Assembly: GCA_001603805.1 (NCBI GenBank)
Contig: LUZY01000013.1
Location: 62,001-126,000, forward strand
Direction of reading: 5' to 3'
DNA length: 64,000 nt
From: Deferribacterales bacterium Deferri_01
GTDB lineage: Bacteria; Chrysiogenota; Deferribacteres; Deferribacterales; Geovibrionaceae
The notes beneath the pieces were generated by a model. The model was not told where the DNA came from, searched no databases, and saw only the letters and a program-made list of their open reading frames with translations. Position numbers and translations under genes: made by a program. Positions 37,973 through 60,538 of this stretch are shown one piece after another. The stretch's first letter is position 1. Each line of letters opens with the position of its first letter.

Positions 37973-38424
37973 AGTTATCTTATTTCCCGTTAATGATGAA
38001 CATAAGAGGCAGAAGGCTTGTTTTTATAGGCGGCGGCAAAGTCGCCGAAAGGAAAATAAACTCACTGATCCGTATGGAGCCGAAAATTACCGTTATAGCG
38101 GAGTCTGTTACAGACGGAATAAAGAATAATAGTCAGGTTGATGTAATCATAAAATCAGCATCTGCGGATGATATACAGGGGGCGGATCTGCTCTTTGTAT
38201 GTACTGATAACAGAGAGCTGAACCGCAAGATTGCCATTGAAGCCAAGATGAAGAATATACCTGTGAATGCGGCGGATGATCCTGAACTCAGTGACTTTCA
38301 CATGCCCGCAGTCTATATTGAGAACGATACAGGTACGGTTGTGTCTGTTTCCACACAAGGGCGTGAGCCTTCGTTTTCTGCAAAACTGCGTGACAGGATT
38401 GCGGCTTTTCTTTCAGGAGAATAG
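37969..38424 (+). CDS. sirC: Precorrin-2 dehydrogenase (SirC/CysG-N type)
   Basis: Oxidises precorrin-2 to sirohydrochlorin with NAD. 151 residues: an N-terminal Rossmann domain with V-F-I-G-G-G-K-V-A-E-R-K and a dimerisation part with N-A-A-D-D-P-E-L-S-D-F-H. It is shorter than Met8p/CysG (about 200+), lacking most of the C-terminal helical part, so dehydrogenase activity alone is most likely; cobalt insertion would fall to CbiK. Serves sirohaem and B12. Confidence 0.88.
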   Translation: MKLSYFPLMMNIRGRRLVFIGGGKVAERKINSLIRMEPKITVIAESVTDGIKNNSQVDVIIKSASADDIQGADLLFVCTDNRELNRKIAIEAKMKNIPVNAADDPELSDFHMPAVYIENDTGTVVSVSTQGREPSFSAKLRDRIAAFLSGE

Positions 38425-43277: not shown

Positions 43278-43886
43278 TTATTCACCTGTTTTTCTTATCC
43301 CTATCACACAGGAAAGAGCATCTTCGGGTATAGGCTCATCCAGTGTTACTCTGTGAACTATTTCATTATTCATGCTGAGGTTTGCCGCCACCCAGAGTTC
43401 AAAATTCTTTATGAGGCGGCTGTTTTCTTCTATGATCTTTCTTGGGTTGTTGATTTTATCACACAGAATAAGAAATTTATCCGCATTAACTGCTTTTTCT
43501 ATGTCAAATCCGCTCCGTCCGTGGGCGGAAAGGAACACAGCATCCTCCCATGGTTCAGCTATAGCCGCAAATGCTGCCTGAACAACGCTTATTCCCTCTA
43601 TTATCTTAACGTTTTCCCTGCCGAATTCCTTCACGACAGATTTAGCGAGGCTGAAAAATCCCGCATCCCCCGTGACAAGAACGCCGATTTTTTTTCCACG
43701 GTTATTTCTGATAAATTCCAGAGTGCCGCTTATCAGAGGTTCCGGCTCGTAAAAAGGAACATTTACCCAGTGGCGGAATCTCTCCCCGCCTACAGCCGTA
43801 TCTATCTGTGAGAGGGCTTTCTTCGCCCTGCCTGTCAGCATATCAGGGTGTCCTGTTCCAGTGGAGATTATGTATATGTCAGCCAT
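43278..43886 (-). CDS. cbiE: Cobalt-precorrin-7 C5-methyltransferase
   Basis: Tetrapyrrole methylase corresponding to the N-terminal half of CobL. 202 residues; I-S-T-G-T-G-H-P-D-M-L-T at the start, V-L-V-T-G-D-A-G-F-F-S-L-A near 70, F-L-S-A-H-G-R near 117 identify CbiE. There is no CbiT domain: the gene stops at CbiE length and the next is cbiF. The C15-methylating, decarboxylating partner is not in the window. Confidence 0.92.
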   Translation of the reverse strand: MADIYIISTGTGHPDMLTGRAKKALSQIDTAVGGERFRHWVNVPFYEPEPLISGTLEFIRNNRGKKIGVLVTGDAGFFSLAKSVVKEFGRENVKIIEGISVVQAAFAAIAEPWEDAVFLSAHGRSGFDIEKAVNADKFLILCDKINNPRKIIEENSRLIKNFELWVAANLSMNNEIVHRVTLDEPIPEDALSCVIGIRKTGE

Positions 43887-44859
43887 GAGATTGTCCTATC
43901 AGATCGCCTTTCATGTTGAAAAGGAGAACATCGGTTTTTGTAAATCCGTAATCATCCTTGACCTTTGCGCTTATCAGTTCTGCTATACTGCTGAACCCTG
44001 ACGGATGGGTAAGGCATATTTCCTCAACAGTGTTGAAACCAGTCGGGATGCCCAGAACACCGCTCACAAAGTCCTGCGCCTGAGGGGAATGGGCAGAATG
44101 GGTATTGTAGTGTCCCATTGCCAGCTTCGCCAGTTTTCCCGGATGACCGGCGAGGGTGATTTCTGTTATATCATTCTTCCGCAAGTAATTAAAAGCTTCT
44201 CCGAAGTAGTTGCTGACCATCACAGCGTCTTCACAGGGGCGGATGGTCTGCATGTGTTTCTCGCCTATTTTGCCCGCAACAAGGATTATGTGTCTTCCTT
44301 CTGCAAGCTTTACGTCAATTTCGCATTTAAAGGAATCTATAAGAGCGTCAATGCTCATGGGGTGAACTATCCCCGTTGTGCCTATTATCGATATGCCGCC
44401 GATTACACCTATGCGCTCATTAAATGTCTGCGCCGCAAGCCTTTCCCCTTCGGGTACGGATATAGTAACCACTGCTCCCTTTGGTGCGCCTATGGCTTCA
44501 CGCACATTTTCTTCTATCATTTTTCGGGGAACAGGGTTTATGGCAGGTTCACCCACGGGTATCTGCAAACCCGCCTTGGTAACGGTGCCTACCCCTTTGC
44601 CGCCTTTTATTTTTATCATGCCGCTGTCGTTAAGCACCACACAAGCATGTATCTCCGCCCTGTGGGTAACGTCAGGATCATCGCCCGAATCCTTTATGAC
44701 AAACGCTCCCGTTTCAGAGCAAGTGACAGGTATGCCCATACGGCTGCCGTCCGGCAGGATAATATCAATGAAATCAGTATTTATTCCGCTCATACGGTAA
44801 ACGGCATGAGCCTTTGCCGCAGCCGCAGCGGCTGTGCCTGTGGTGAATCCTTTACGCAT
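43879..44859 (-). CDS. cbiD: Cobalt-precorrin-5B C1-methyltransferase
   Basis: Methylase specific to the anaerobic pathway. 326 residues. R-K-G-F-T-T-G-T-A-A-A-A-A start, I-G-I-I-G-T-T-G-I-V-like I-I-G-T-T-G-I-V-H-P-M-S near 158 and L-A-G-H-P-G-K-L-A-K near 236 are CbiD signatures. First gene of cbiDEFGHJ, which reads away from the cbiK riboswitch. No riboswitch is visible on its own short upstream side, and no clear Shine-Dalgarno precedes its ATG. Confidence 0.94.
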   Translation of the reverse strand: MRKGFTTGTAAAAAAKAHAVYRMSGINTDFIDIILPDGSRMGIPVTCSETGAFVIKDSGDDPDVTHRAEIHACVVLNDSGMIKIKGGKGVGTVTKAGLQIPVGEPAINPVPRKMIEENVREAIGAPKGAVVTISVPEGERLAAQTFNERIGVIGGISIIGTTGIVHPMSIDALIDSFKCEIDVKLAEGRHIILVAGKIGEKHMQTIRPCEDAVMVSNYFGEAFNYLRKNDITEITLAGHPGKLAKLAMGHYNTHSAHSPQAQDFVSGVLGIPTGFNTVEEICLTHPSGFSSIAELISAKVKDDYGFTKTDVLLFNMKGDLIGQSHG

Positions 44860-44947
44860 TTTGAGATGGTGTTCCGAAATAAAATATGTGTCAAGGATAA
44901 TTATAATTGACTAACAGGCTTATGTGTCGGAAAATGCCTTAATATAC

Positions 44948-45108
44948 GAGGTGGAGACAGAAACAGGGAATTTGGTTAAAATCCAAAACAGTCCCGCTAC
45001 TGTAACCGGAACGAAACCGCAGTGAGCCACTGTCCATAAAACGGATGGGAAGGTGCGGGAGTAGGCGGCTTTTATGCCGTGCCGGAAGTCAGGATACCTG
45101 TTCTGTTT
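44948..45108 (+). promoter_or_regulatory. Cobalamin riboswitch in front of cbiK
   Basis: In order: GGGAA...GGTTAAAATCC (44974-44984), GTCCCGCTACTGTAACCGG around 44991-45009, an arm with GATGGGAAGGTGCGGGAGTAGGCGG around 45044-45068, and the B12 box GCCGGAAGTCAGGATACCTG at 45081-45100. This is a complete adenosylcobalamin-class aptamer. Between it and cbiK lie GGCACCCC, an AGGATTTCCT repeat, nine T's at 45180-45188 and AGGAGG. A possible promoter TTGACT/GAAAAT lies at 44907-44935. It should switch off the cbiK-to-btuR operon when B12 is abundant. The rest of 44860-45201 holds nothing else seen. Confidence 0.95.
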
Positions 45109-45201
45109 GAACTTTACGAGGATGAAGGCACCCCAATATGCCCCCCATCAGGATTTCCTGTCGCACCCGTATAAAATCATTTTTTTTTAAAGGAGGAGTA
45201 T

Positions 45202-46161
45202 GTGAAACGCATATTCGCAGTGTTCCTTGTTTGTCTGGCTTTTACGGGCGCAGTACATGCAGGAGGAGAGAAGGCAATGGAAGAAAAAACGGCAATTGTT
45301 ATCACATCATTCGGCACAACCTATGAAACAACCCTTGAACCTATTCTCGCTTTGGTGAGGGAGACACAGGCAAAGTATCCCGAAACACCAGTGAGACTGG
45401 CTTTTACTTCAAACATAATCCGCAAAATATGGAACGAAAGAGCGGCTGATTCGGCTTACCGCAAAGAACATCCGCAGATTCCTGAAATGCTTTACGGAAT
45501 AAAAAATGTTCTTGGTGTAATGGCAGATCTCCAGAACCTCGGTTACAGGAGCATTGTCGTTCAGCCTTCGCTTATTACTGATGGTGAGGAGTATGCTGAC
45601 ATGGTTGCTTATGTTGAAGGGCTTGCGGGTATAAAAACCCTTAAACCAAAACTTCAGCCTTTTGTTGCTGTCGGCATTGGTAAACCCCTTACAGGCGCTT
45701 ATTCCCATGCGGAATATCTGGAAACACTGGCAAAGGTGCTTGCTCCGGATATCCAGCGGGCAAAAGATGCTAAAGCAGCTCTAGTTTACATGGGACACGG
45801 AAACGAACATATGTCTCAGGGAGCTTACTATGAGCTTGAGCTTATCCTTAACCGCATGTACGGCGTTCCTGTTATTATAGGTCTGGTTGAAGGTCTGCCC
45901 GATTTTGACTCAGTTATGGATAAACTTGTTGATAAAAAAGTAAAAAATATAATTCTCAAACCTCTGATGTATGTTGCGGGCGATCACGCCGAGAATGACA
46001 TGGCGGGAGATGAGGACGATTCATGGAAAGTTATGCTCACAAAGGCAGGCTTCAATGTTACTCCTGTGCTTGAAGGACTTGGGCACAAACCCGCTGTAAG
46101 GCAGATATTCATAAACCATATGGAAGAAGCCGCCAGAGAGGCAGGAATAAAACTTAAGTGA
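45202..46161 (+). CDS. cbiK: Periplasmic sirohydrochlorin cobaltochelatase
   Basis: Inserts Co2+ into sirohydrochlorin. 319 residues starting at GTG 45202 behind AGGAGGAG; the ATG at 45200 in another frame is followed at once by TGA. A clear Sec signal (M-K-R-I-F-A-V-F-L-V-C-L-A-F-T-G-A-V-H-A) places it in the periplasm, like the CbiK-P form of Desulfovibrio, whereas Salmonella CbiK is cytoplasmic. The mature part opens I-V-I-T-S-F-G-T-T. Likely metal ligands and catalytic groups are H in Y-M-G-H-G-N-E-H-M, E in L-V-E-G-L-P-D-F and H in A-G-D-H-A-E-N-D-M-A-G-D. It is the only cobalt chelatase seen, and leads an operon with an exporter and an importer. Confidence 0.93.
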   Translation: MKRIFAVFLVCLAFTGAVHAGGEKAMEEKTAIVITSFGTTYETTLEPILALVRETQAKYPETPVRLAFTSNIIRKIWNERAADSAYRKEHPQIPEMLYGIKNVLGVMADLQNLGYRSIVVQPSLITDGEEYADMVAYVEGLAGIKTLKPKLQPFVAVGIGKPLTGAYSHAEYLETLAKVLAPDIQRAKDAKAALVYMGHGNEHMSQGAYYELELILNRMYGVPVIIGLVEGLPDFDSVMDKLVDKKVKNIILKPLMYVAGDHAENDMAGDEDDSWKVMLTKAGFNVTPVLEGLGHKPAVRQIFINHMEEAAREAGIKLK

Positions 46162-46162
46162 T

Positions 46163-47005
46163 ATGAACAAGATATCCGTAAGATCCCTTACAAAAGTCTT
46201 CGGCGCTCACAAGGCTGTAGACGGAATAAGCTTTGACGTGGAGGAGGGGAGCATCCTTGCTCTCCTTGGTCCTAACGGAGCGGGTAAAACCACCACAATA
46301 AACATGCTGACAGGGCTCACTATTCCTGCATCCGGCGAAATACGCTATGACGGAACTCTGTTTGATCCGCAGAACAGGAGGATTAAACAGACTATAGGTG
46401 TTGTTCCGCAGCATAACAATGTGGACAGGGATCTTACTGTTTATCAGAACCTCAAAGCCCACGGAATACTTTTCGGAGTGAGCAGTTTAAACAATAAAAT
46501 TGCAAATGCGCTGGATTTTTCCGGGCTTGCCGCACATGCGGATAAAACTGCCGGAAACCTCTCCGGCGGTATGAAACGCAGGCTGATCATTGCCCGTGCC
46601 CTTCTTCATGAACCTTCGGTGCTTTTTCTGGATGAACCCACAGTGGGGCTTGATGCCTCTGTCCGTAGGACAATGTGGGACTTTATACGCAGTATAAATC
46701 AGGATAAGCGATGTACGGTTTTGCTCACTACCCATTACATCGAAGAAGCTGAAATGCTGTCTGACCGTGTGATGATAATGGATAAGGCAAAAATTGTCAC
46801 TGAAGGAACGGCGGCAGGACTGAAGGCGAGGGTCGGCAAATGGGCTCTGGACATATACCGGAACGGTAAAACTGAGACAGAGTTTTTTGAAACCCGTGAT
46901 GCAGGGCTTGAGAGGCTGGGCGCTCTTTCGGATACAGCAAGTATAAGGGAAACAAACCTTGAGGATGTTTATCTTACCATTACCGGCAGGAGAATAGACG
47001 CATGA
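46163..47005 (+). CDS. ABC-2 type transporter ATP-binding protein
   Basis: 280-residue ATPase of the drug/polysaccharide-export (DrrA/NodI) kind. Walker A G-P-N-G-A-G-K-T-T, Q-loop V-V-P-Q-H-N-N-V-D-R-D-L-T, signature L-S-G-G-M-K-R-R-L and Walker B L-F-L-D-E-P-T-V-G-L-D are complete. It begins one base after the cbiK stop and overlaps its permease. The pair is of an export class, unusual directly between a chelatase and an importer. A related pair lies at 60535-62125. Confidence 0.92.
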   Translation: MNKISVRSLTKVFGAHKAVDGISFDVEEGSILALLGPNGAGKTTTINMLTGLTIPASGEIRYDGTLFDPQNRRIKQTIGVVPQHNNVDRDLTVYQNLKAHGILFGVSSLNNKIANALDFSGLAAHADKTAGNLSGGMKRRLIIARALLHEPSVLFLDEPTVGLDASVRRTMWDFIRSINQDKRCTVLLTTHYIEEAEMLSDRVMIMDKAKIVTEGTAAGLKARVGKWALDIYRNGKTETEFFETRDAGLERLGALSDTASIRETNLEDVYLTITGRRIDA

Positions 47006-47739
47006 ACGGCGTAAAAGGTGTTTTATACAGAGAGACACAGGTTCTCCGCAGCAGAATATGGAAGGTGCTTGCATCATCTGCTGTTTCCCCTTTTCTGTTC
47101 CTTGTTGCCTTCGGCTACGGAATAGGGCGGTTCGCCTCTGTGGACGGGGTAAACTATCTTACATTTCTTATACCCGGACTTGTCGCCATGAGCAGCCTTA
47201 ACCAAAGCTACGGCATTTCCGGCGAAATAAATATTTCCAGATTTTACTTTAAGGTCTTTGACGAGTATCTCCTTGCTCCTGTGAGCAGGTGGGAAATTGT
47301 TGCGGGCGAGGTGCTTTACGGAGTAATCAAAGGGCTTATTCCTGTGGTGATAATACTGGCATACGGCTTTATTGCCGGTGCAGGGCTGAAAATGAGCCTT
47401 TTATTCATCCCAGTGATGCTTGTTCATCTGATTGTTTTTTCCCTTCTGGGCATAATTGTTGCACTCGTGGTAAAAAACCACGGGGATCAGATGTCTGTGA
47501 ACACATTTGTGATAACCCCAATGATATTTCTCTCCGGCACTTTTTACCCGGTGGATAAAATGCCTTTTCTGGCAGGTGTTCTGGCTCATATTTCCCCCAT
47601 GACTTACTCAACAAAGCTCATACGATGTTCCCTGATAGGGACAGAGTGCGATATATGGCTGAACATGGGCGTTATGCTCGGTTCGGCGGCTGTGCTGTTC
47701 ATCATAGCAGGACGGATTCTGAACGGGGTTGAAGGTTGA
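47002..47739 (+). CDS. ABC-2 type transporter permease
   Basis: 245 residues with six membrane helices. The ABC-2 motifs P-G-L-V-A-M-S-S-L near 60 and F-L-S-G-T-F-Y-P-V-D-K-M-P near 175 are clear, and N-terminal R-E-T-Q-V-L-R-S-R is typical of NodJ/DrrB-type proteins. Overlaps both neighbours by four bases. Substrate unknown; export of a tetrapyrrole precursor to periplasmic CbiK is one hypothesis. Confidence 0.88.
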   Translation: MNGVKGVLYRETQVLRSRIWKVLASSAVSPFLFLVAFGYGIGRFASVDGVNYLTFLIPGLVAMSSLNQSYGISGEINISRFYFKVFDEYLLAPVSRWEIVAGEVLYGVIKGLIPVVIILAYGFIAGAGLKMSLLFIPVMLVHLIVFSLLGIIVALVVKNHGDQMSVNTFVITPMIFLSGTFYPVDKMPFLAGVLAHISPMTYSTKLIRCSLIGTECDIWLNMGVMLGSAAVLFIIAGRILNGVEG

Positions 47740-48686
47740 AGCTTCTATGGATTCTGATACTCGTAGCAGTATCTGCTGCTGCGTTGTTTGTTGGCTCCAC
47801 AGATATAACCCAGTTCCGCACGGATGAAGTCCAGAGGGATATTCTGCTTAATATGCGGGCTCCCCGTGTGGTTTTTGCAGGGCTGACAGGTGCTATGCTT
47901 GGCTTGAGCGGTTCTGTATATCAGCTTGTGCTGCGCAATCCTCTGGCGGACAGCTTTACCACCGGAGCGGCATCATCTGCTGCTTTGGGGGCTGTGATTG
48001 CCATAGCATTAGGGCTTCCTGCACATCTTGCTTCACCTGTGGCTCTTTTTACGGGGTTAGGCGGGCTGATGCTTGTTTACAGTGTTTCATACCGCAGAAG
48101 CGGAATAAGCCCCATAACTATGATTCTGGCGGGTGTGGTGCTTAATATTGTTGCTTCGTCGGTGATAGGGTTTGTAAAATTCTTTTTTGAAGAATCTCTG
48201 ACCTCCATAGTCTTCTGGCTTATGGGCGGTTTTTATATGATAACATGGGCAAAAACAGCTTTTGCGGCGTCTGTTCTCATTCTCTGCACAGCTTATTTTG
48301 TATTCAGGGCTCGCCCTTTGAACATCCTCGCCCTTGATGAAATGTCCGCTGAAACATCCGGCGTGAATGTACGGAGTGAACGAATGAGGGCGTTTGTGTT
48401 CTCCACTGCTCTGGTGGCTGTTTCTGTGAGTTTTACAGGCTTAATCGGCTTTGTGGGGCTTATTGTACCACACATAGCCCGAAGTTTTTACGGCAGTGAT
48501 GTCAGGCAGGGAATCTTTTATTCCTCCGTTTTTGGCGCACTGCTTATGATAACAGCGGATGCAGTGGCAAGAACAGTTATACCAAACGGTGCGGAGCTTC
48601 CCGTTGGAATAGTTACCGCTGTTCTTGGAGGAATGTTCTTTTTCTATATACTGAGGAGCAGGCAGGCGGAGATCTGGCATGATTGA
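47736..48686 (+). CDS. btuC: FecCD-family (BtuC-like) ABC importer permease
   Basis: 316 residues, about nine to ten helices, of the type II importer class for B12, haem and siderophores. R-A-P-R-V-V-F-A-G-L-T-G near 35 and the late G-L-I-G-F-V-G-L-I-V-P-H-I-A-R are family hallmarks. Operon position under a cobalamin riboswitch suggests a corrinoid or cobalt-tetrapyrrole substrate. No dedicated outer-membrane receptor is adjacent. Confidence 0.85.
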   Translation: MKLLWILILVAVSAAALFVGSTDITQFRTDEVQRDILLNMRAPRVVFAGLTGAMLGLSGSVYQLVLRNPLADSFTTGAASSAALGAVIAIALGLPAHLASPVALFTGLGGLMLVYSVSYRRSGISPITMILAGVVLNIVASSVIGFVKFFFEESLTSIVFWLMGGFYMITWAKTAFAASVLILCTAYFVFRARPLNILALDEMSAETSGVNVRSERMRAFVFSTALVAVSVSFTGLIGFVGLIVPHIARSFYGSDVRQGIFYSSVFGALLMITADAVARTVIPNGAELPVGIVTAVLGGMFFFYILRSRQAEIWHD

Positions 48687-49392
48687 TATTGCAGGTCTTG
48701 AATTTAAACGTGGCGTATTCTCGTTAAGTGTGCCTGATCTCACTGTGCAGAAAGGCTGCAAAATAGCTGTTATTGGCGAAAACGGTTCCGGTAAAAGCAC
48801 GCTTCTGCATGTGCTTACCGGGCTTACCCCCTGTGAAGGCATCTATTACGGCGGAAAAGAGCTTGGCGGAATAAAGCGTAAAGAGCGTGCGGAAATGATG
48901 GCTTTTATGCCGCAGCTTCCGTCAGTTGTTTTTCCGTTTACTGTTTTTGAAGTGGTTCGCCTTGGTGCATACGCAGCAGGACATATGAAGAATGCTGACA
49001 GACTGACGGAAGAAATTCTTAAAACAACTGCCCTTGTCACTCTGCGGGACAGAGCCTTTACGGAGCTTTCCGGCGGAGAGAAGAGAAGGGTGATGATCGC
49101 CCGTGCGCTTAATCAGCGAACTGATGTTCTCTTTCTGGATGAACCTGTATCAATGCTTGATGTAAGGCACTCTCTGGAAATTTTAAAACTTCTGACAGAT
49201 TCGGGCAGAACGCTCATTGCCTCAATGCACGAGGTGAATCTGTCGGTTAAATACTTTGACAGGATATGGATGATGTTAAATGGAAAACTGATATATGACG
49301 TGCCGGCCGGAGAGGTTGAGGCGTCCATGCTTTCGGAGGTGTTCAGTGTTAAGGCTGATGCTCACGCTGACCATTTTACTTTCAGTATTTAG
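48679..49392 (+). CDS. btuD: BtuD-like ABC importer ATP-binding protein
   Basis: 237 residues. Walker A G-E-N-G-S-G-K-S-T, Q-loop F-M-P-Q-L-P, signature L-S-G-G-E-K-R-R-V and Walker B L-F-L-D-E-P-V-S-M-L-D. Overlaps the permease by eight bases and the binding-protein gene by 47 bases. Confidence 0.88.
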   Translation: MIDIAGLEFKRGVFSLSVPDLTVQKGCKIAVIGENGSGKSTLLHVLTGLTPCEGIYYGGKELGGIKRKERAEMMAFMPQLPSVVFPFTVFEVVRLGAYAAGHMKNADRLTEEILKTTALVTLRDRAFTELSGGEKRRVMIARALNQRTDVLFLDEPVSMLDVRHSLEILKLLTDSGRTLIASMHEVNLSVKYFDRIWMMLNGKLIYDVPAGEVEASMLSEVFSVKADAHADHFTFSI

Positions 49393-50131
49393 TGCTAATG
49401 CTGCCGAAAGAGTTGTTATACTTGCTCCCGCTGCGGCGGATATATTCTATAAATTAGGTGCGGGTGATAAAGTTGCCGGAGTTACAAAAAACGTTACGGA
49501 ATTTCCCGAAGCGGTTAAGGTTGGTACGCATATCCGTCCGAATGCTGAGATAATACGCTCCCTGAAGCCTGATTTGATAATTTCCGGCTCTGCTGATTCT
49601 TATTATGCTGATGCTGTTGAGGCTATTACCGGAGCATCAGTTTACAAGTATGACCCGCTGACCCTTGAAGAAATACTGGTTTGTGTCAGGGATATAGGCG
49701 AACTGACAGGCAGGACAGAGCAGGCGGCAAGGCTTGTGGGTGAGCTTAAAGGCAAGCTTATGTCTGTTCAGCCTTTGCCTTCTGTTGCCAAGGTTATTTT
49801 CGAGGTCAGCCAACTTCCTTACACAGCGGCAGGCAGGGGAAACATTGCCTCTTCTGTAATTGAGGCGGCAGGCGGAAAAAATATTGTGGATTCGGATGAT
49901 AAGCTGGTGAAACTCTCACTGGAAAGAGTGGTTGCATCGCAGCCGGATGTTTATATCTGGCAGACAGGACCCATGAACCGCAACCCTGCTCTCCCTGCGG
50001 AGCGTCCGGAGTTTTCAAAAATGAGGTCCAAATGGATACATGCGGATGAAAAGCAATTTTCAAGGGCTAACACAGGATCTTTTGACGCTGTGATTGAGCT
50101 TAATTCCGCCTTGAGGAAACTGTATGAATAA
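49346..50131 (+). CDS. btuF: BtuF-like periplasmic binding protein of the importer
   Basis: 261 residues from GTG 49346, which has GGAGG six bases upstream; this start gives a good signal peptide (L-R-L-M-L-T-L-T-I-L-L-S-V-F-S-A-N-A). An ATG at 49358 is possible too. The mature part is a type III (BtuF/FhuD) binding protein with V-I-L-A-P-A-A-A-D-I-F-Y-K-L-G and L-K-P-D-L-I-I-S-G. Its 5' end lies within btuD by 47 bases. It should capture B12, a corrinoid or a cobalt-tetrapyrrole in the periplasm. Confidence 0.85.
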   Translation: MLRLMLTLTILLSVFSANAAERVVILAPAAADIFYKLGAGDKVAGVTKNVTEFPEAVKVGTHIRPNAEIIRSLKPDLIISGSADSYYADAVEAITGASVYKYDPLTLEEILVCVRDIGELTGRTEQAARLVGELKGKLMSVQPLPSVAKVIFEVSQLPYTAAGRGNIASSVIEAAGGKNIVDSDDKLVKLSLERVVASQPDVYIWQTGPMNRNPALPAERPEFSKMRSKWIHADEKQFSRANTGSFDAVIELNSALRKLYE

Positions 50132-50843
50132 AAAACTTATTATAGTCGGTGCCGGAGTTAATAGAAACTCAATGACACTGGCGGGTATTGATGCTCTTAA
50201 AAATGGCGAAGTTGTTCTTTATGACAGACTTATAGATAAATCTCTTCTTGAATATGCATCCTGCGAATGTATTGATGTGGGCAAACATCCCTATGATAAA
50301 AACTGTGTACGTCAGAAAGATATAAATGAAATAATCCGTGAGCATCTGGAAAAAGGGCGCTGTGTTGTCCGTCTGAAAGGTGGTGACAGCTCTGTGTTTG
50401 CCCGCACAGCAGAAGAAGTTGAAACAGCAAAAGCTGTCGGTGCTGATGTTGAAGTCATAGCGGGGGTAACTTCCGCATCTGCCCTTTCCGCAAAGATGAA
50501 AAGCGCTCTTACTGACCGCCGTAATATTCCCGGTGTGGTTTTCATTACCGGGCACACGAAGGACGGCACTCTGGATGATGCTTACAACTGGAAAGCTCTG
50601 GCAAATCTGGGGCTTACTATTGTGGTTTACATGGGTGTCAGAAACTTTGGTGTTATTGCCGCAAAACTTACCGAAAACGGTATGGATGCTGCTGTTCCGG
50701 TGTTGATAGGCGAGAATATCGGCACAGAAGGTGAGAGAGTAATGTTTACATCACTTAGCGAAGCAGAGAGGTTCATAACTGAAAACAGTGTTAAACACCC
50801 AGCCACAATAATAATCGGAGAGGTAGTTAACCATGCCGGATAA
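50124..50843 (+). CDS. cobA: Uroporphyrinogen-III C-methyltransferase
   Basis: Makes precorrin-2 by two SAM methylations, the entry to sirohaem and B12. 239 residues, stand-alone SUMT. I-V-G-A-G at the start, V-V-L-Y-D-R-L-I near 30, V-R-L-K-G-G-D-S-S-V-F-A-R near 83 and V-I-A-G-V-T-S-A-S-A near 112 are the signatures. It overlaps both neighbours and shares the riboswitch-controlled operon, so precursor supply is under B12 control. Confidence 0.93.
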   Translation: MNKKLIIVGAGVNRNSMTLAGIDALKNGEVVLYDRLIDKSLLEYASCECIDVGKHPYDKNCVRQKDINEIIREHLEKGRCVVRLKGGDSSVFARTAEEVETAKAVGADVEVIAGVTSASALSAKMKSALTDRRNIPGVVFITGHTKDGTLDDAYNWKALANLGLTIVVYMGVRNFGVIAAKLTENGMDAAVPVLIGENIGTEGERVMFTSLSEAERFITENSVKHPATIIIGEVVNHAG

Positions 50844-51354
50844 AACATCATGCGTTCATGTCTACACCGGCAACGGCAAAGGGAAAACAACTGCTGTACT
50901 GGGTCTTTGCGTGCGCTGTGCTGGAGCGGGGTTTAATGTGTATTTCGGGCAGTTTCTCAAAGACGGCAACTACTCAGAGACTGAATCTCTGAAAAAGTTT
51001 GATAATATCACCCATGAAACCTTCGGGCAGAGCGGTTTTATAAGGGGCGAGCCAACAACAAAAGATATACAGATGGCTGAAGACGGCTTTACGAAAATTA
51101 AAGAGGCTGTCTTCTCTGGAAAATACAGGCTGGTGGCGGCAGATGAACTAAATGTCGCTCTATTCAAAGGGCTTGTGAAGAAGGAAGATGTCCTTGAGTT
51201 GATCAAAACATTACCTGATGGTGTCGAACTGGTTTTATCAGGCAGGTACGCCGCAGATGAAATAATAGGGGCGGCGGATCTTGTTACAGAAATGAATGAA
51301 ATTAAGCATTACTACACCCAGGGAATACCCGCCAGAAAAGGCATCGAAAAATAA
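50833..51354 (+). CDS. btuR: Cob(I)yrinic acid a,c-diamide adenosyltransferase (CobO/BtuR type)
   Basis: Adds the 5'-deoxyadenosyl ligand to cob(I)alamin or corrinoid intermediates. 173 residues; P-loop T-G-N-G-K-G-K-T-T-A-V near the start, F-G-Q-F-L-K-D-G and V-A-A-D-E-L-N-V-A near 97 identify the family. Last gene of the cbiK operon, followed by a hairpin. Confidence 0.93.
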   Translation: MPDKTSCVHVYTGNGKGKTTAVLGLCVRCAGAGFNVYFGQFLKDGNYSETESLKKFDNITHETFGQSGFIRGEPTTKDIQMAEDGFTKIKEAVFSGKYRLVAADELNVALFKGLVKKEDVLELIKTLPDGVELVLSGRYAADEIIGAADLVTEMNEIKHYYTQGIPARKGIEK

Positions 51355-51574: not shown

Positions 51575-52186
51575 ATGATTGAAGAATATTTCAGCAAAGG
51601 CGGAATGATGATGTACCCGCTGCTGTTTTTCTCAATTGTGCTTACAGCAGTTTTTATAGAGAGAATGATTTTCTTTGCCCTTAACAGAAGCTCAAGAAAA
51701 GTTCTGGAAAATGCGGAGCATTCATTTTTTAAAGGTGATTTTAAAACAGCCCTCGCCACTCTTAAAAATTCAAAAGGCGCTATGGAGAAAGTTGCTGCCG
51801 AAATAATAATCCATATAAACTGTTCAAAACATGATCTTGAACATATAGCGGAAAACAGAGCTATTTCAGAATTACAGAGGTTTTCACGCAGCCTGCATCT
51901 GATGGACCTTATTGGCAGGATATCGCCTATGGTTGGTCTTTCGGGAACAGTATTGGGAATGGTGAAGGCATTTCAGTCTATTTCAGCACAAAAAGGGGCA
52001 GTTGATCCTTCAGTTCTTGCCGGAGGTATATGGGAGTCTCTTCTAACAACTGTTTTCGGACTTATGGTCGGGATTCCGGCTCTTATAATTTTTCACATCT
52101 TTGAGAATGAATTAAGCAAAAAAGCCCTGACAATAAAACTGAAAAGCGAGGAAATGATTCGTCGCGCAGGAGCCTGCGTTGATTAA
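51575..52186 (+). CDS. exbB: ExbB/TolQ/MotA-family proton channel protein
   Basis: Inner-membrane stator of the TonB energy complex. 203 residues with three helices: near 15-30, and a pair in the conserved region L-I-G-R-I-S-P-M-V-G-L-S-G-T-V-L-G-M and T-V-F-G-L-M-V-G-I-P-A-L. First gene of the haem operon; overlaps exbD by eight bases. Confidence 0.93.
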   Translation: MIEEYFSKGGMMMYPLLFFSIVLTAVFIERMIFFALNRSSRKVLENAEHSFFKGDFKTALATLKNSKGAMEKVAAEIIIHINCSKHDLEHIAENRAISELQRFSRSLHLMDLIGRISPMVGLSGTVLGMVKAFQSISAQKGAVDPSVLAGGIWESLLTTVFGLMVGIPALIIFHIFENELSKKALTIKLKSEEMIRRAGACVD

Positions 52187-52586
52187 TCTCAGCATGTTCG
52201 CAAGAAAAAGCAGATCAGCGGATATGACACCTATGATCGATATGGTGTTCCTTCTTCTGATTTTCTTTCTGCTTACATCAGTATTTGCTGTTCCTTCAAT
52301 TAATTCTGACCTGCCTGCAAGCAGCACTGAACAGAAAACAGACAAACTCGAAAGAGTGGTCACATTAAAAGCAGATGGACGTGTGCTTATAGGTAAATCA
52401 GAAATACCGATGAGCGGACTTGAAGCGGGACTTAAAAACATGATCACTGAAAGCGGTGACAAGGTGATCACCTTAGCCGCTGATAAAGAAGTAAATTTTG
52501 AATCAATAGTTGCAGTTATGGACAGTGCCTTAAAAGCAGGCGCTGTGTCTGTTGAATTTCTCACGGAGAGCAGAGATGAGAGATAA
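52179..52586 (+). CDS. exbD: ExbD/TolR-family biopolymer transport protein
   Basis: 135 residues, one N-terminal helix containing the conserved aspartate (D-M-T-P-M-I-D-M-V-F-L-L-L-I-F-F), then a periplasmic domain. Partner of ExbB in using the proton gradient. Overlaps tonB by 11 bases. Confidence 0.93.
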   Translation: MINLSMFARKSRSADMTPMIDMVFLLLIFFLLTSVFAVPSINSDLPASSTEQKTDKLERVVTLKADGRVLIGKSEIPMSGLEAGLKNMITESGDKVITLAADKEVNFESIVAVMDSALKAGAVSVEFLTESRDER

Positions 52587-53271
52587 CAGGGGACGTATAG
52601 TTGCCGGAAGTCTTATTTTTTCTATGCTGCTTCATGGGGCTGTTCTCTTTTTAGTAAAGGTCGAGAATGCTCCGGCAGACCAGAAAGAGCCTGAAAGGAT
52701 AACAGTATCCCTCAAACATTTTCAGCCCGAACCGATTGCCGTTCCCGTTGTTGCAGAACCCGTTCCTCCTAAACCGCAGGCTGAACCTGTTGTTAAGAAA
52801 AACCCTCCGAAAAAAATTAAAAAGCCCCTCCCTGTGAGGGAAAAACCCGCTGCTGTTAAGGCAGTGGAGGAAACTGTTCCCGTTGCGGAAGAAGTTCCTG
52901 TTGTATCTGAAGCACCGGCAGAGGTGAAAGTTGCTGCTGTTCATACGCTTGTTCCTGCTCCAAGACCTGTTATGCCTCCCCAGCCGGAGTTTGACTATGA
53001 CAGCTTCAGAGCAAGACTTACAGACGGCATGGTACGCAATAAAAAATACCCTTACTCCGCAAGGCGCAGAGGGTATGAAGGCACTGTGGTTATCAAGCTG
53101 CATATTGACTGCGAAGGAAGGCTTCAGGGCTTAAAAATGGTTGAGTCCAGCGGGTTTGATATATTGGATAATGAGGCGCTTTCCCTTGCCTCATCAGTGT
53201 TCCCCATAAGGGAAAAACTTCCCGAACCTGTGACTTTGCTTATACCTATTGATTACAGCCTGCATAACTGA
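52576..53271 (+). CDS. tonB: TonB energy-transducing protein
   Basis: 231 residues from the ATG at 52576; the earlier in-frame ATG at 52552 lies deep in exbD. N-terminal anchor helix (I-V-A-G-S-L-I-F-S-M-L-L-H-G), a proline-rich E-P/K-P spacer (about 50-135), and a C-terminal TonB domain with Y-P-Y-S-A-R-R-R-G-Y-E-G-T-V-V near 165 and the final P-I-D-Y. It should drive the receptor encoded next. Confidence 0.92.
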   Translation: MRDNRGRIVAGSLIFSMLLHGAVLFLVKVENAPADQKEPERITVSLKHFQPEPIAVPVVAEPVPPKPQAEPVVKKNPPKKIKKPLPVREKPAAVKAVEETVPVAEEVPVVSEAPAEVKVAAVHTLVPAPRPVMPPQPEFDYDSFRARLTDGMVRNKKYPYSARRRGYEGTVVIKLHIDCEGRLQGLKMVESSGFDILDNEALSLASSVFPIREKLPEPVTLLIPIDYSLHN

Positions 53272-53338
53272 AAAAAAGAGGAAAAAAGGGCGGATCCCCC
53301 TGTTTATAGACGTTATAAATCAGACTAAAGGAGAGTTT

Positions 53339-55366
53339 ATGTACAGAAAGTTAATTTTTGTGCTTCCATTGCTTGCGTTTTCTTTAATTTCTACATCCGC
53401 AGCAGATATGGAAACAGAAAAAATCAAAGTAACTGCCACACGAGTCGAGAAGGAAATGAAAGAAGTTCCTTATACAGTTAACGTTATAACGGAAGAAGAT
53501 ATCCGCAAATCGGGTGCAACAAGCCTTGCCGAACTCCTTCGTGATATTCCGGCTGTCCAGATGACAAGCACGGGAGCAGCGGGAGTTCAGAGACTGAGCC
53601 TTCGTGGTGAAAGCAGTTCCAGAACCCTGATAATGGTGGATGGAATGAAAATTACAGAACAGAAGTCAATGGACGGAACACCTTTGCTCATTGATATTAA
53701 CAGCATTGAGCGGATTGAAATAATCAAAGGACCCGGTTCTGTGCTTTACGGTTCCGAAGCCATAGGCGGCGCAATTAATGTTATAACAAAAAAAGGTGGC
53801 GACAGACCGGTTCAGGGTGTTGCCAGCTATACCTACAACACTAACAGTGACTCATATAATGCCGCTGCATCGCTTTACGGCGGTATCAAAAACTTTTACT
53901 ACAGGGCGGAAGTTTCCAAAAACGATTTCGGCAAACGTGAAGACTCCCACGGTGACGAGCTTAAAGGCTCTGAATATGAAAACACCAATATGAGCCTGCT
54001 TGCAGGATATAAAAACAAGAAATTCGATATGGGAGTGCAATACACTGACTACGAGTCAGAGAGTGAGGTTTATGTAGGTGAGATTGAGCCTCCATTTACG
54101 ATGATGCACATGATGCTTCCCGAATGGAACAGGGAAAAATACGCAGGATGGTTTGAATACCGCAATCCGGGCAGTTTTCTTAACAAGGCAAGAATAGATG
54201 TATTTACGCAGGAAACCTATAAAAAATTCATAAATAATATGGATATGACAGTGAGCATGGGTCCGATAACTATGCCGATGTCATACAGAGGGCTCACTAA
54301 AAATACACTCGATACCACAGGTGTTCTTGGTCAGTTTGATTTTGAGATTTCTGATACAAACCTTCTGATAGCAGGTTTGGAATATAATATTGATGACCTC
54401 AACGCCAAAGATAATATCCAGACCTTCGGTGCCCCTGTTGCCACTCTTACGGACACCGATGCAAAGCAGACGACAATGTCTGCATTTTTGCAGGACGAGC
54501 AGATGCTTGGCGATTTTATCCTCAGTGCCGGACTGCGCTATACTAAGGTCAAAAATGAAATAGAAAGCACAAACAATGCAAGTATTCCCGATGAAGATAC
54601 TGACGATGATAATGTAGTGGGCAGTCTTTCACTGGTTTATACAGGCATACAGGACACTGCTTTGCGTGCTATCTACTCCAGCGGTTACAGAACGCCGAAC
54701 CTCCAGCAGCTTTACATGGGAACAACTCACGGCAGCAGCACTCCCACATTTTCAAACCCGGATCTTGATCCTGAAACTTCTGACAACTTTGAAGTTGGTG
54801 TCAGATTCAGCAATAAAATGGCTGATATTGACCTTGCCGTGTTCCACACTAAGTCTGAAGACTACATTACCACTCATACAATTCCTTACGGCAGCGGCAC
54901 TGCTCTTGAGTTCACCAATATTGACAAGGCTGAAACAACAGGAGCCGAACTGATGACTAAGGTTTTCATAGGCGACTTTACACCGTACATAAACGGCGCT
55001 TACATGAGGCGCAAATATGAGCAGGAAGGATTCAGCACCTATAAAAACGGCATTCCCGAAATAACTTCAAGATTCGGTATCCGTCACGATGCCAGATTCG
55101 GCAAGAAATTCGCTTTGAATACCGATATCTACGGACGTTACGCATCAAAAGCGGAGGATGCTGCACCTGATGGAACTGTGGACACCACAGAAGCCTATAC
55201 CACCCTTAATCTTGCTCTCACAGGTTCTTACTTCTACAAAGACGGCAGAAGGATCATGGTAGGGGTTGAAGCCCTTAATATTAACAATCAGGACTATGAG
55301 CTTGCTATGTCTCCCATTCCCGAACCGGGTAGACATTTCATACTCAAAGTATCAGCAGATTTCTAA
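53339..55366 (+). CDS. TonB-dependent outer-membrane receptor, probably for haem
   Basis: 675 residues from the ATG at 53339, behind AAAGGAGAG; an upstream frame to 53249 is ignored. Signal peptide, a TonB-box-like E-K-I-K-V-T-A-T-R, the plug domain (L-A-E-L-L-R-D-I-P-A-V, V-L-Y-G-S-E-A-I-G-G-A-I-N) and a 22-strand barrel ending in F-I-L-K-V-S-A-D-F. Y-R-T-P-N-L-Q-Q-L-Y and N-P-D-L-D-P-E-T-S, with a histidine between them (T-T-H-G-S), resemble the FRAP/NPDL region of haem receptors. The HutW, HutX and importer genes downstream fit haem. A siderophore or B12 receptor is the alternative. Confidence 0.85.
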   Translation: MYRKLIFVLPLLAFSLISTSAADMETEKIKVTATRVEKEMKEVPYTVNVITEEDIRKSGATSLAELLRDIPAVQMTSTGAAGVQRLSLRGESSSRTLIMVDGMKITEQKSMDGTPLLIDINSIERIEIIKGPGSVLYGSEAIGGAINVITKKGGDRPVQGVASYTYNTNSDSYNAAASLYGGIKNFYYRAEVSKNDFGKREDSHGDELKGSEYENTNMSLLAGYKNKKFDMGVQYTDYESESEVYVGEIEPPFTMMHMMLPEWNREKYAGWFEYRNPGSFLNKARIDVFTQETYKKFINNMDMTVSMGPITMPMSYRGLTKNTLDTTGVLGQFDFEISDTNLLIAGLEYNIDDLNAKDNIQTFGAPVATLTDTDAKQTTMSAFLQDEQMLGDFILSAGLRYTKVKNEIESTNNASIPDEDTDDDNVVGSLSLVYTGIQDTALRAIYSSGYRTPNLQQLYMGTTHGSSTPTFSNPDLDPETSDNFEVGVRFSNKMADIDLAVFHTKSEDYITTHTIPYGSGTALEFTNIDKAETTGAELMTKVFIGDFTPYINGAYMRRKYEQEGFSTYKNGIPEITSRFGIRHDARFGKKFALNTDIYGRYASKAEDAAPDGTVDTTEAYTTLNLALTGSYFYKDGRRIMVGVEALNINNQDYELAMSPIPEPGRHFILKVSADF

Positions 55367-55374
55367 GGTCAGGC

Positions 55375-55923
55375 ATGAAAGTTTTGATCATGTATGCAAG
55401 CCGTTACGGAGCAACAGCGGTTATTGCTGAATGGATAGCCGAAAGGCTTACCATTGAGGGATGGGAAACAGAAAGGAGGGAAGCCCGCGAGGCTCCCTCC
55501 GCTTTTTCAGGTTATGACCTTGTGCTTATGGGGTCAGGTATATATGCCAACGGTTTTCTTCCGGAGATGGAAAACTTTATAGAAGAGCGTAAAGACGAGC
55601 TTGCCGAGGTGAAAACAGCCTTTTTCGGCACGGCAATGAAGACAGAGTGCATGTTTGTAAAAGGCAAAGCTATGGGGGGAGTGCAGATATTTGAAAAATA
55701 CGCCGCCCTCACCGGAACATGTATATACGGCGAGATGCTCCACGGGGAGATGGTCTACGCCAGAATGACAGACACGGATAAAAAAGGTATGGACTACTTT
55801 TACCGAATGGCGGGATTCAGCGAGCTTGAAATAGCTGAACGCAAAAAGCCCCGGAGTCTTATGAATAAGGCAGAGGTCTGGGCTTTTACGGAGAATCTCG
55901 TTAAGCGGGTCATGAAAAGGTAA
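55375..55923 (+). CDS. Flavodoxin-domain protein (HemG-like)
   Basis: 182 residues with a flavodoxin fold: FMN phosphate loop Y-A-S-R-Y-G-A-T at 7-14, then M-G-S-G-I-Y-A-N-G near 56. It is similar to the HemG-type flavodoxins, which act in protoporphyrinogen oxidation. Located eight bases after the receptor and four bases before hutW, it is more likely the electron donor of the radical SAM haem-degrading enzyme. Confidence 0.82.
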   Translation: MKVLIMYASRYGATAVIAEWIAERLTIEGWETERREAREAPSAFSGYDLVLMGSGIYANGFLPEMENFIEERKDELAEVKTAFFGTAMKTECMFVKGKAMGGVQIFEKYAALTGTCIYGEMLHGEMVYARMTDTDKKGMDYFYRMAGFSELEIAERKKPRSLMNKAEVWAFTENLVKRVMKR

Positions 55924-55927
55924 GGAT

Positions 55928-57325
55928 ATGGAAAGCTGGTTAAAATTCGTAGACGATGAAAAACGCAGACTGATTTTCGGCAATGAAGAAACTTTTGAAG
56001 CGGCAAAGGCTTATGATAAAAAACGCACTGTTCATGCCGGAATAAGAGGAAAGAATGTCGAGGCGGATAAAACTATGTCTGTCTGGCAGGCAGAGGCGAA
56101 GGCTAAACATTCCTTTGAAGATGCCTGCGTGTATATAAATATTCCTTTTTGCCAGACAAAATGTACATACTGCGGTTTTTTCAAAAACCTGTCCGATGCT
56201 TCGCTGATAGATGACTACACAGAAGCTCTCACAGGAGAAATAGCGGATGCCAAAAATACTCCCCTGTACTCCCATGGGAAGGTAAGGGCAGTGTATATAG
56301 GCGGCGGAACTCCCGGGACGTTATCTGCGATGCAGATTGAAAAAATGCTGAAAGCTGTCCGCGAAAGCCTGCCTCTCTCGAATGACTGCGAAATCACCTT
56401 TGAAACAAGAACTTACCAGTTTGGTGCTGATAAGATTCAGGCATGCGTTGATAACGGTGTAAACCGTTTTTCCCTTGGTGTTCAGTCTTTTGACACAAAA
56501 GCCAGAAGGGCGATTGGCAGGGTGGATGCGGGTGAAAAGGTAATGGAGATGGTAAGCAGGCTTATTTCCATGAAGGAGGCAAGCGTTTCCCTCGATTTTA
56601 TCTTCGGTCTGCCGCATCAGCCGGTTGAAACTTTTCTGAACGATATTCACACTGCTGACTGCCTTGGTGTGGATGGAATGGCTGTTTACCAGCTTAATGT
56701 CTTTGAAGGCGGAAAGATGGACGAAGGGATAAAAAAAGGCAAAACCGAAGCGGTTCCTGAAACCTCAAGGCAGTATGAATACCACTCTGCTGCGTATGAG
56801 ATGCTTTCTGATATGGGATATTCACAGCTTTCCATGTCCCACTGGGTCAGAGGCACTCTGGACAGAAGCATATATAACCGTTTCACAAAATCCGGCTGCG
56901 TGCTTCACGCATTCGGCGCCGGTGCAGGCGGAAGAACAGAAAACTACGGCTATTTTGTTCACCCTGCCGTAACACCGTACAATATGATGAGAGCAAAAGG
57001 AATTAAGCCTGTGATGGGGCTCTCTGAAAAAAATATCATGAGCGGACTTTATGAGTTCATAAACGGACAGATGGATACAGGTATTCTCCGTTTTGACACG
57101 GCTGAAAGGCTTTTCGGAATTAACCTAAAAAGCTTTTTTTCTCCTTTGACAGAATCATGGGAGAAAAGAGGTCTTGTCACTGTGGGCGAGAGAACTATGC
57201 GTCTGCTCCCTGCCGGGCAGTTCTGGTACGTGAATATGACTCAGGCGCTGCTTGATATTCTTGAATTGATACACAGCCAAGGCGTTTATGAACCCGTATC
57301 CGATAAAATAGCAGCTCAGGGCTAG
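55928..57325 (+). CDS. hutW: Radical SAM anaerobic haem-degradation enzyme (HutW/ChuW)
   Basis: 465 residues of the HemN/HemW-related family. The [4Fe-4S] site is C-Q-T-K-C-T-Y-C (I-N-I-P-F-C just before), followed by Y-I-G-G-G-T-P and R-F-S-L-G-V-Q-S-F. ChuW in E. coli O157 opens the haem ring without oxygen by SAM-dependent methylation. Context with HutX, a haem receptor and importer supports HutW over coproporphyrinogen dehydrogenase HemN. The strict-anaerobe setting makes this the iron-release step. Confidence 0.88.
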   Translation: MESWLKFVDDEKRRLIFGNEETFEAAKAYDKKRTVHAGIRGKNVEADKTMSVWQAEAKAKHSFEDACVYINIPFCQTKCTYCGFFKNLSDASLIDDYTEALTGEIADAKNTPLYSHGKVRAVYIGGGTPGTLSAMQIEKMLKAVRESLPLSNDCEITFETRTYQFGADKIQACVDNGVNRFSLGVQSFDTKARRAIGRVDAGEKVMEMVSRLISMKEASVSLDFIFGLPHQPVETFLNDIHTADCLGVDGMAVYQLNVFEGGKMDEGIKKGKTEAVPETSRQYEYHSAAYEMLSDMGYSQLSMSHWVRGTLDRSIYNRFTKSGCVLHAFGAGAGGRTENYGYFVHPAVTPYNMMRAKGIKPVMGLSEKNIMSGLYEFINGQMDTGILRFDTAERLFGINLKSFFSPLTESWEKRGLVTVGERTMRLLPAGQFWYVNMTQALLDILELIHSQGVYEPVSDKIAAQG

Positions 57326-57334
57326 GAGGAAGCT

Positions 57335-57832
57335 ATGCAGACAGAAAAAATTACGGATTATCTCTCAAAAAATAAAAATATGCCTACGCTTTTTGCGGCA
57401 AGAGAACTTGGAGTTTCCGAAAGGGATATTCTCCGCAATATAGATGACGACGGCATTATTGAAGTGGGCGGAAGTTTCTTTGATACGGTTATGAAAGAAG
57501 CCGCAGGGTGGGGTGCTGTTACGATTATTGTAACTAATGACTCTGCAATCATAGAAATGAAGGCATCTATCCCTGTGGGACAGTACGCCAGAGGCTTTTT
57601 TAATCTGCATTCGGAAGAAAGCCCCCTCGGAGGGCATATATCTTTTGAGGAAATTGACAGTATATTCTTTGTGAGCAGACCTTTTATGGGCAAAGAGAGT
57701 CATTCTGTTCAGTTTTTTGATAAGAACGGCAAATGCGCATTTAAAATTTATCTGGGTCGTGACGCATGCGGTAAAGTGCTGGAGTGCCAGAAGGCGGAAT
57801 TCGGTAAACTTAAAAAGAGGTGCCTCGCATGA
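57335..57832 (+). CDS. hutX: Cytoplasmic haem carrier HutX/ChuX
   Basis: 165 residues of the ChuX/HutX family, which binds haem after import and hands it to the degrading enzyme. L-A-A-R-E-L-G-V-S-E at the start (family-like helix), L-N-like F-N-L-H-S-E-E-S-P-L-G-G-H near 90 and V-S-R-P-F-M-G-K-E-S-H-S-V near 115. ATGA overlap with the binding-protein gene. Confidence 0.88.
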   Translation: MQTEKITDYLSKNKNMPTLFAARELGVSERDILRNIDDDGIIEVGGSFFDTVMKEAAGWGAVTIIVTNDSAIIEMKASIPVGQYARGFFNLHSEESPLGGHISFEEIDSIFFVSRPFMGKESHSVQFFDKNGKCAFKIYLGRDACGKVLECQKAEFGKLKKRCLA

Positions 57833-59747: not shown

Positions 59748-60538
59748 CAGGATGTCTCAGTGTTGATTCTCTCCGTGCTGGTTACGCAAAAAAGGAAGTT
59801 TTAAAAGGTGTTTCCCTCTGTTTTGAAAAAGGGCGTATAACAACGGTCATAGGTCCGAACGGCTCTGGTAAATCTACTCTGCTTAAAACAGCGGGCAGAC
59901 TTCTTCAGCCTTTCTCAGGTTCTGTTCTTCTTGAGGGGAAATCCATTGCGGAGATGGATGATAAGAGTATAGCAAAAAAACTGGGCATACTTCCGCAGTC
60001 ACCGATTGCTCCTATGGATCTGCCCGTTCACTGTCTCGTTGCCTTCGGACGTACACCGCACCACGGCTTCATGAACCGCTTCAGCAATGAGGACAGAGAC
60101 GCCGTTGACTGGGCAATTAACGCCACCGGACTTGAGGACAAACGTTTTAAACGCATAGGTCAGCTCTCCGGCGGAGAAAGACAGAGAGCATGGATAGCCA
60201 TGTCGCTGGCGCAAAAGCCGGAGATACTTCTTCTGGATGAACCCACAACCTATCTTGATATACACCATCAGTTTGAAGTGCTTGAGCTTCTTCGCAGGCT
60301 TAATGATCAGCATGGTCTTACAGTGGTCATGGTTCTGCACGATCTCAACCTCGCAGCTTCATTCAGCCATAGAATAATTGCTCTGAAAGAGGGGATGACC
60401 GTTGCCGACGGAACTCCGGAAGAGGTTCTGTGCGCTGACAATATCTACAATGTATTCAATATACGCTCAAAGATTATCCGCATAAATGAAGACGGCATAG
60501 AAAAAACCGTTGCCGTGCCCCTTGGAGTGAGACATTGA
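59744..60538 (+). CDS. hutD: Haem importer ATP-binding protein (HmuV/FepC-like)
   Basis: 264 residues. Walker A G-P-N-G-S-G-K-S-T, Q-loop L-P-Q-S-P, signature L-S-G-G-E-R-Q-R-A and Walker B L-L-L-D-E-P-T-T-Y-L-D. Overlaps the permease and the following ABC-2 ATPase. Confidence 0.9.
   Translation: MTGCLSVDSLRAGYAKKEVLKGVSLCFEKGRITTVIGPNGSGKSTLLKTAGRLLQPFSGSVLLEGKSIAEMDDKSIAKKLGILPQSPIAPMDLPVHCLVAFGRTPHHGFMNRFSNEDRDAVDWAINATGLEDKRFKRIGQLSGGERQRAWIAMSLAQKPEILLLDEPTTYLDIHHQFEVLELLRRLNDQHGLTVVMVLHDLNLAASFSHRIIALKEGMTVADGTPEEVLCADNIYNVFNIRSKIIRINEDGIEKTVAVPLGVRH

Follow-up and report, generated by a model that had tools for sequence, protein, structure and literature searches.

In the textbook account of vitamin B12 synthesis, cobalt is inserted in the cytoplasm, which is supplied with the metal by a cobalt importer. 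The operon described here comes from Deferribacterales bacterium Deferri_01 (GenBank assembly GCA_001603805.1, contig LUZY01000013.1, positions 62,001 to 126,000 of the forward strand); this whole stretch of 64,000 nucleotides is referred to below as the window, and coordinates are counted from its first letter. The first gene of the operon encodes a sirohydrochlorin cobaltochelatase, CbiK, that carries an export signal, and the next genes encode an exporter pair (ATPase and permease) of the ABC-2 type, a class of ATP-binding cassette (ABC) transporters, and an importer of the BtuC/BtuD/BtuF type (BtuCDF). We give about an even chance to the reading that this block, cbiK-abc2A-abc2B-btuC-btuD-btuF, is a tetrapyrrole shuttle for B12 synthesis, perhaps with a cytoplasmic CbiK isoform working alongside it in the window's clade.

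Among the described systems, CbiKP of Desulfovibrio vulgaris resembles the window's CbiK in being a class II chelatase that bears a signal and shares its catalytic histidine pair, and in being accompanied by a BtuCDF-like importer and a B12 riboswitch (PMC545781, PMC11124144). However, the ABC-2 pair is unreported there, whereas the window has the pair within the block and a lone CbiK. D. vulgaris also has an extra cytoplasmic enzyme, CbiKC, and CbiKP has haem-binding histidines; both are absent from the window's system. Rodionov et al. described cbiK-cbiL with btuCDF behind a single B12 element in Desulfovibrio, reported cbiK genomes without known cobalt transporters and put forward cbtX as a novel transporter of cobalt (PMC545781). 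Salmonella CbiK, which is accompanied by CbiMNQO, is a homologous enzyme of a cobalt-early (anaerobic) B12 pathway (PMC7689651), but it is cytoplasmic and needs imported Co2+, whereas the window's CbiK carries a signal and is encoded in a genome whose only CbiM homologue is apparently nickel-type. FetB/IhtB of Porphyromonas gingivalis is also a CbiK homologue outside the cytoplasm with an adjoining importer; it is described, however, as a haem-binding protein outside corrin synthesis, whereas the window's gene lies in a corrin cluster under a cobalamin riboswitch. Finally, Sulfurospirillum multivorans has cbiK-btuC-btuD-btuF in its norpseudo-B12 corrin cluster, which is induced by tetrachloroethene (PCE) (PMC7755780) and includes the MsbA-like ABC protein SMUL_1565 (PMC4585668), but an ABC-2 pair is again unreported. 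We found no paper in the open-access text that describes a periplasmic insertion loop or shuttle.

In the window, a cobalamin riboswitch precedes an eight-gene operon that begins with cbiK:

44900-45119, plus strand: cobalamin riboswitch aptamer (RF00174, 89.8 bits over the full model, gathering score 31.5)
45202-46161, plus strand: CbiK, class II sirohydrochlorin cobaltochelatase, exported form (PF06180, 223.6 bits)
45202-45261, plus strand: Sec signal peptide of CbiK, MKRIFAVFLVCLAFTGAVHA (sequence rule; kept with altered residues in L032, L033 and L034)
46163-47005, plus strand: ABC-2 exporter ATPase, DrrA/NodI-like, abc2A (profile matches)
47002-47739, plus strand: ABC-2 exporter permease, abc2B (ABC2_membrane, PF01061, 99.3 bits; orthologues in relatives)
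47736-48686, plus strand: FecCD/BtuC-type importer permease (PF01032, 263.9 bits)
48679-49392, plus strand: BtuD-type importer ATPase (profile matches)
49295-50131, more likely from 49358, plus strand: BtuF-like periplasmic binding protein with a signal of its own
50124-50843, plus strand: CobA, uroporphyrinogen-III methyltransferase (SUMT) (TIGR01469, 206.3 bits, above the cut-off)
50833-51354, plus strand: BtuR, cob(I)yrinic acid a,c-diamide adenosyltransferase

An earlier note on this DNA had described the window's only CbiK as signal-bearing and as encoded behind one cobalamin riboswitch with the ABC-2 pair, btuCDF, cobA and btuR, and all of this was confirmed. Its statement that the genes overlap throughout holds for every junction except cbiK/abc2A, where there is a gap of one nucleotide. 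Riboswitches also lie 5' of cbiK or cbiA-cbiK in L034, L038, L043-L046, L050, L057 and L067.

CbiK starts at the GTG at 45202, with a Shine-Dalgarno sequence (AGGAGG, 45191-45196) five nucleotides upstream. In the N-terminus, MKRIFAVFLVCLAFTGAVHA followed by GG, a basic n-region, a hydrophobic core and a cleavage site of the A-x-A type can be recognized; here and in the other genomes, signal peptides were called by eye and with a simple, crude sequence rule. We rejected misannotation as the source of the signal because the gene has its own AGGAGG and because relatives conserve the signal despite changed residues and an in-frame indel. The GTG also overlaps a start-stop triplet pair, ATGTGA (45200-45205).

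The match of CbiK to PF06180 is far above the cut-off of 26.2 bits and spans positions 2-261 of the 262 in the model. The protein misses the NCBIfam SiroCoChCbiK equivalog cut-off (167.4 versus 400 bits), and we do not claim it as that equivalog, since the model is tuned to nearer kin of Salmonella CbiK. It aligns to the solved structures of D. vulgaris CbiKP (2xvx), Salmonella CbiK (1qgo) and P. gingivalis FetB (9b86). The predicted catalytic pair, His199 and His262, corresponds to residues 154 and 216 of CbiKP and to His145 and His207 of the Salmonella enzyme, and in the alignment the pair is retained in all signal-bearing (75/75) and all signal-less (18/18) CbiKs. The window's CbiK is predicted to insert cobalt into sirohydrochlorin. 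Lobo et al. reportedly assigned the roles of the CbiKP residues in 2017, with histidines 154 and 216 being catalytic and histidines 96 and 103 binding haem. The latter two positions are Ala132 and Glu139 in the window's CbiK, and a CbiKP-like haem-binding role was rejected, its key histidines being missing.

This CbiK is the only one in the genome (2.85 Mb, with a listed completeness of 100%). The CbiX profile matched nothing in the whole genome except CbiK itself, below threshold. Neither a hidden CbiX nor a second CbiK was found, no search being aimed at CobN, the chelatase of class I. The genome does encode HemH, a ferrochelatase. The earlier note had held that a periplasmic loop would be refuted by a cytoplasmic CbiK or CbiX elsewhere in the genome that suffices for B12 synthesis, or by the lack of a conserved link between periplasmic CbiK and the ABC-2 pair in other genomes, and on both points (for the link, see below) its claim survives. 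As for cobalt supply, the genome's one CbiM homologue lies outside the corrin cluster and adjoins a DUF4198 (NikK-like) gene. The nikK and nikL genes of nickel NikKMLQO systems have been described (PMC545781), and the context of this CbiM looks nickel-type and NikKMLQO-like. It was set aside as the cobalt importer on account of that context, though the same CbiM may still take up cobalt.

The grouping of signal-bearing CbiK with the two transporters is conserved in the window's phylum. Of 51 genomes searched, 23 have CbiK, which by its N-terminus is signal-bearing in 17 (the weakest call being that in G022) and signal-less in six. All 17 genomes whose CbiK bears a signal have an orthologous ABC-2 permease (at least 50% identity and at least 230 bits, the next best matches reaching at most 118 bits), which is present in none of the six with signal-less CbiK and in two genomes without CbiK. 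Fisher's test on 17/17 versus 0/6 gives a P near 1e-5 at face value, the genomes being related. BtuCDF is also found in all 17 and in most of them adjoins the ABC-2 pair. The layout varies; for example, in L043-L046 BtuCDF lies directly 3' of cbiK and the ABC-2 pair is divergent and flanking, and in genus g3 (L052-L056) abc2A-abc2B-btuC-btuD-btuF is an intact unit unlinked from cbiK.

The same gene order occurs in two further phyla. In a second, small phylum (nine species covered), cbiK-abc2A-abc2B-btuC-btuD-btuF is arranged as in the window in L080 and L082, and L075, L081 and L083 have part of this order, cut by contig ends. In a third phylum, to which Pelovirga and Desulfovibrio-like genomes belong, CbiK is encoded in 107 of the 246 genomes. 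The loci examined there were those readable within 20 kb, which is a non-random sample, and the ABC-2 pair was scored at these loci only. Among the 48 single-CbiK loci read, 41 encode an enzyme with a signal; CbiX is absent from 36 of these 41 genomes. The six-gene order is present in L116 and L140, and the ABC-2 pair and BtuCDF are rearranged nearby in L095, L106, L109 and L138. Two other kinds of neighbors were seen. One is a membrane protein with multiple spans and no Pfam match, which in this set lies near signal-bearing CbiK (L097, L098, L101, L110, L111, L117 and L153) but near no signal-less CbiK, and which may be the cbtX of PMC545781. The other is a porin-like protein (a weak OprB match) near signal-bearing CbiK at nine loci in two phyla (L075, L080, L082, L117, L130-L133 and L154).

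The company of CbiK differs according to whether it has a signal. When all loci are considered, BtuC lies near 32 of the 76 signal-bearing CbiKs versus none of the 18 signal-less ones, whereas cbiM lies near two of the 76 versus eight of the 18. For example, the signal-less CbiK of Pelovirga (L004) and those of L036, L047 and L048 are a few kb from cbiM and cbiO and have neither BtuCDF nor the ABC-2 pair, and in one genus both arrangements occur at the same site before cobA (L046 versus L047/L048). In the CbiK tree, a clade of five signal-less CbiKs nests with the window's set of three and with L034 (support 99/95 and 100/99). These five lack the ABC-2 pair and BtuCDF, and L004 and L036 have cbiM close by. 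In this clade, a close relative of the window's CbiK is without a signal, and both the ABC-2 pair and BtuCDF are missing with it.

The shuttle would draw on two further genes of the window:

37969-38424, plus strand: SirC-like precorrin-2 dehydrogenase, sirohydrochlorin-making (TIGR01470, 86.1 bits, above the cut-off)
33404-34087, minus strand: CbiL, C20 methyltransferase taking the chelatase product (TIGR01467, 214.2 bits)

Sirohydrochlorin, made by CobA and SirC in the cytoplasm, would leave through the ABC-2 pair, receive Co2+ from the signal-bearing CbiK in the periplasm and, as cobalt-sirohydrochlorin, return through the BtuCDF-like importer to CbiL. The pathway's own intermediate would thus be the cobalt carrier, and a cell whose self-made intermediate carries the metal would need no dedicated cobalt importer. 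The loop suggested in the earlier note is strengthened by the lone chelatase and by the link of CbiK with the ABC-2 pair and BtuCDF, which holds across the phylum and in the same order in two others; the cargo and direction of both transporters are, as before, what we infer. A wider version, in which extracytoplasmic cobalt insertion is normal in at least three phyla, with sirohydrochlorin exported by ABC-2 pairs, re-import by BtuCDF-like proteins and a cytoplasmic chelatase made from an internal start, is put forward tentatively and falls somewhat short of an even chance.

The other genes of the window are in keeping with a B12-making cell, in that an almost complete anaerobic corrin gene set is present: cobS, cobT, cobU, a cobD/cobC-type decarboxylase, cbiB, cbiL, cbiP, sirC, cbiA, cbiC, cbiJ, cbiH, cbiG, cbiF, cbiE and cbiD. 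A separate cbiT was not noticed in the window's corrin cluster, though cbiE and cbiD are there (43278-44859). A promoter and terminator scan gave promoter-like sites that were no commoner than in shuffled sequences. A second cobalamin riboswitch (16171-16350, minus strand) lies directly 5' of metE (13801-16167), which encodes the B12-independent methionine synthase.

The exporter has an ABC2_membrane permease and a partner ATPase, which place it in the ABC-2 family, and it reaches no named NCBIfam cut-off; a sequence search with the permease found no relatives in the PDB. The importer permease belongs to the FecCD family and is below the NCBIfam equivalog cut-offs for BtuC (175.6-188.9 versus 334-461 bits), as are the BtuD (113.8 versus 281 bits) and BtuF (52.1 versus 234 bits) homologues below theirs. 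In the BtuF alignment, a histidine that is invariant in 28 of 29 sequences occupies what we take to be the site of Trp66 of Escherichia coli BtuF, and a histidine aligns there in the Vibrio cholerae B12-binding protein too.

The surroundings of related ABC-2 pairs offer a hint about cargo. The operon is followed by a haem uptake operon (51575-62125) with genes for exbB, exbD, tonB, a TonB receptor, a flavodoxin, HutW (TIGR04107, 461 bits), HutX, a binding protein, a FecCD permease, an ATPase and a second ABC-2 pair (60535-61380 and 61322-62125). This second pair, whose permease is 31% identical to the one at 47002-47739, lies directly 3' of the FecCD importer, which is of the haem type; HutW and HutX are encoded in the same operon. 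In other phyla, related pairs (39-48% identical) lie beside CobN-family genes and TonB/FecCD transport genes in L086, L089 and L090, and in L089 and L090 the pair is directly 3' of a FecCD importer. These contexts, i.e., CbiK, a haem importer and CobN, would point to a tetrapyrrole cargo, and related ABC-2 pairs could possibly form a general tetrapyrrole exporter family.

However, several observations weigh against the shuttle. Many signal-bearing loci of the third phylum have only BtuCDF, or neither transporter, within 9 kb; therefore, a general loop would call for a different exporter at these loci. In L149, the ABC-2 pair lies beside an apparently signal-less CbiK. In the window's phylum, G016 has no CbiK and its abc2A (L059 5879-9448) is split by a foreign insert of about 2.7 kb that resembles a DNA-modification island, and G030, an 87% complete genome, has the ABC-2 pair and no CbiK. 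The pocket positions of BtuF separate B12 from neither cobalt-sirohydrochlorin nor other tetrapyrroles, and its isoelectric point is equally undiscriminating. Five independent contrasts were drawn on supported branches of the tree, using genome-level presence for g3 and hidden Markov model (HMM) hits for the third-phylum loci. For BtuC, three agree, none disagrees and two show no difference; for the ABC-2 pair, about 2.2 agree and 0.3 disagree; and for cbiM, 1.6 go the expected (opposite) way and 0.2 the other. None of these is significant because phylogenetically independent contrasts are too few. Finally, the CbiK gene contains a candidate internal start from which ordinary cytoplasmic CbiK could be made, and the loop would then be unnecessary:

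45261-45266, plus strand: internal Shine-Dalgarno sequence, AGGAGG, 10 nucleotides upstream of the ATG at 45277
45277-45279, plus strand: in-frame ATG at codon 26 of cbiK, candidate start for an isoform without the signal

This start is the basis of the shuttle's main rival, in which the isoform from the ATG at 45277 makes B12 in the normal way in the cytoplasm, and the exported isoform and the transporters scavenge cobalt or corrinoids, synthesis being able to do without them. An internal ATG with a Shine-Dalgarno sequence 4-11 nucleotides before it is present in all 17 of the ABC-2-linked CbiKs of the close clade, from two phyla, versus three of 63 control signal-bearing open reading frames from the same DNA; the controls were picked with a crude rule for signals, and the CbiKs of the clade are related to one another. 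The residues before the start differ (SGGEKAM, SGDGHM, FAAEMNM, SENSM, SGVCM, GEGM and SEAKM), and signal-less homologues such as that of Pelovirga begin near this position. The Shine-Dalgarno sequence contains AGGAG or GGAGG in most cases and GGAG alone in L038, L039, L040 and L042. However, when compared with random synonymous codons, the sites are only mildly strong (per-sequence P of 0.05-0.54), and the arrangement was not seen in the more distant ABC-2-linked CbiKs of L049, L050 and L057, nor in 18 of the 36 third-phylum genomes in which a signal-bearing CbiK is the only chelatase. Because it is in all 17 of those CbiKs and absent from these distant ones, it is likely that the same gene also gives some cytoplasmic CbiK in the window's clade, and this would not serve as a general explanation. 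Therefore, the loop need not be the sole route to B12 where the internal start supplies cytoplasmic CbiK. We consider it rather unlikely that cytoplasmic synthesis with scavenging by the exported form is the whole account, and the shuttle and cytoplasmic synthesis can coexist.

A plainer reading, which we judge a little less likely still, is one of B12 economy: BtuCDF would import cobalamin or cobinamide, the ABC-2 cargo would be unrelated, the exported CbiK would have another role, and the genes would be grouped through their riboswitch. BtuCDF is indeed a known B12 importer, that of E. coli takes cobinamide too (PMC5269720), and Rodionov et al. interpreted the Desulfovibrio btuCDF beside cbiK-cbiL as B12 transport (PMC545781). 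However, such an economy leaves unexplained why signal-bearing, and not signal-less, CbiK is accompanied by BtuCDF and the ABC-2 pair, and how cobalt is inserted in genomes without another CbiK or CbiX.

The idea that the exported CbiK binds haem or strips its metal, a role proposed for CbiKP and FetB, with the transporters moving the products, is very improbable, for although CbiKP and FetB are among its nearest solved relatives beside Salmonella CbiK and the haem uptake operon follows, the haem ligands of CbiKP are replaced (Ala132 and Glu139) and the gene, which encodes the genome's only CbiK/CbiX, shares a cobalamin riboswitch with cobA and btuR.

Should the shuttle exist, cobalt would be inserted outside the cytoplasm in many anaerobes, which would fetch it with an intermediate of their own pathway. 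This would explain the many signal-bearing CbiK loci without CbiMNQO, as well as the presence of BtuCDF genes within synthesis operons, and the 'B12 importers' encoded next to cbiK, currently taken for salvage systems, would need to be re-annotated. The shuttle also gives a testable prediction for the ligand of the binding protein.

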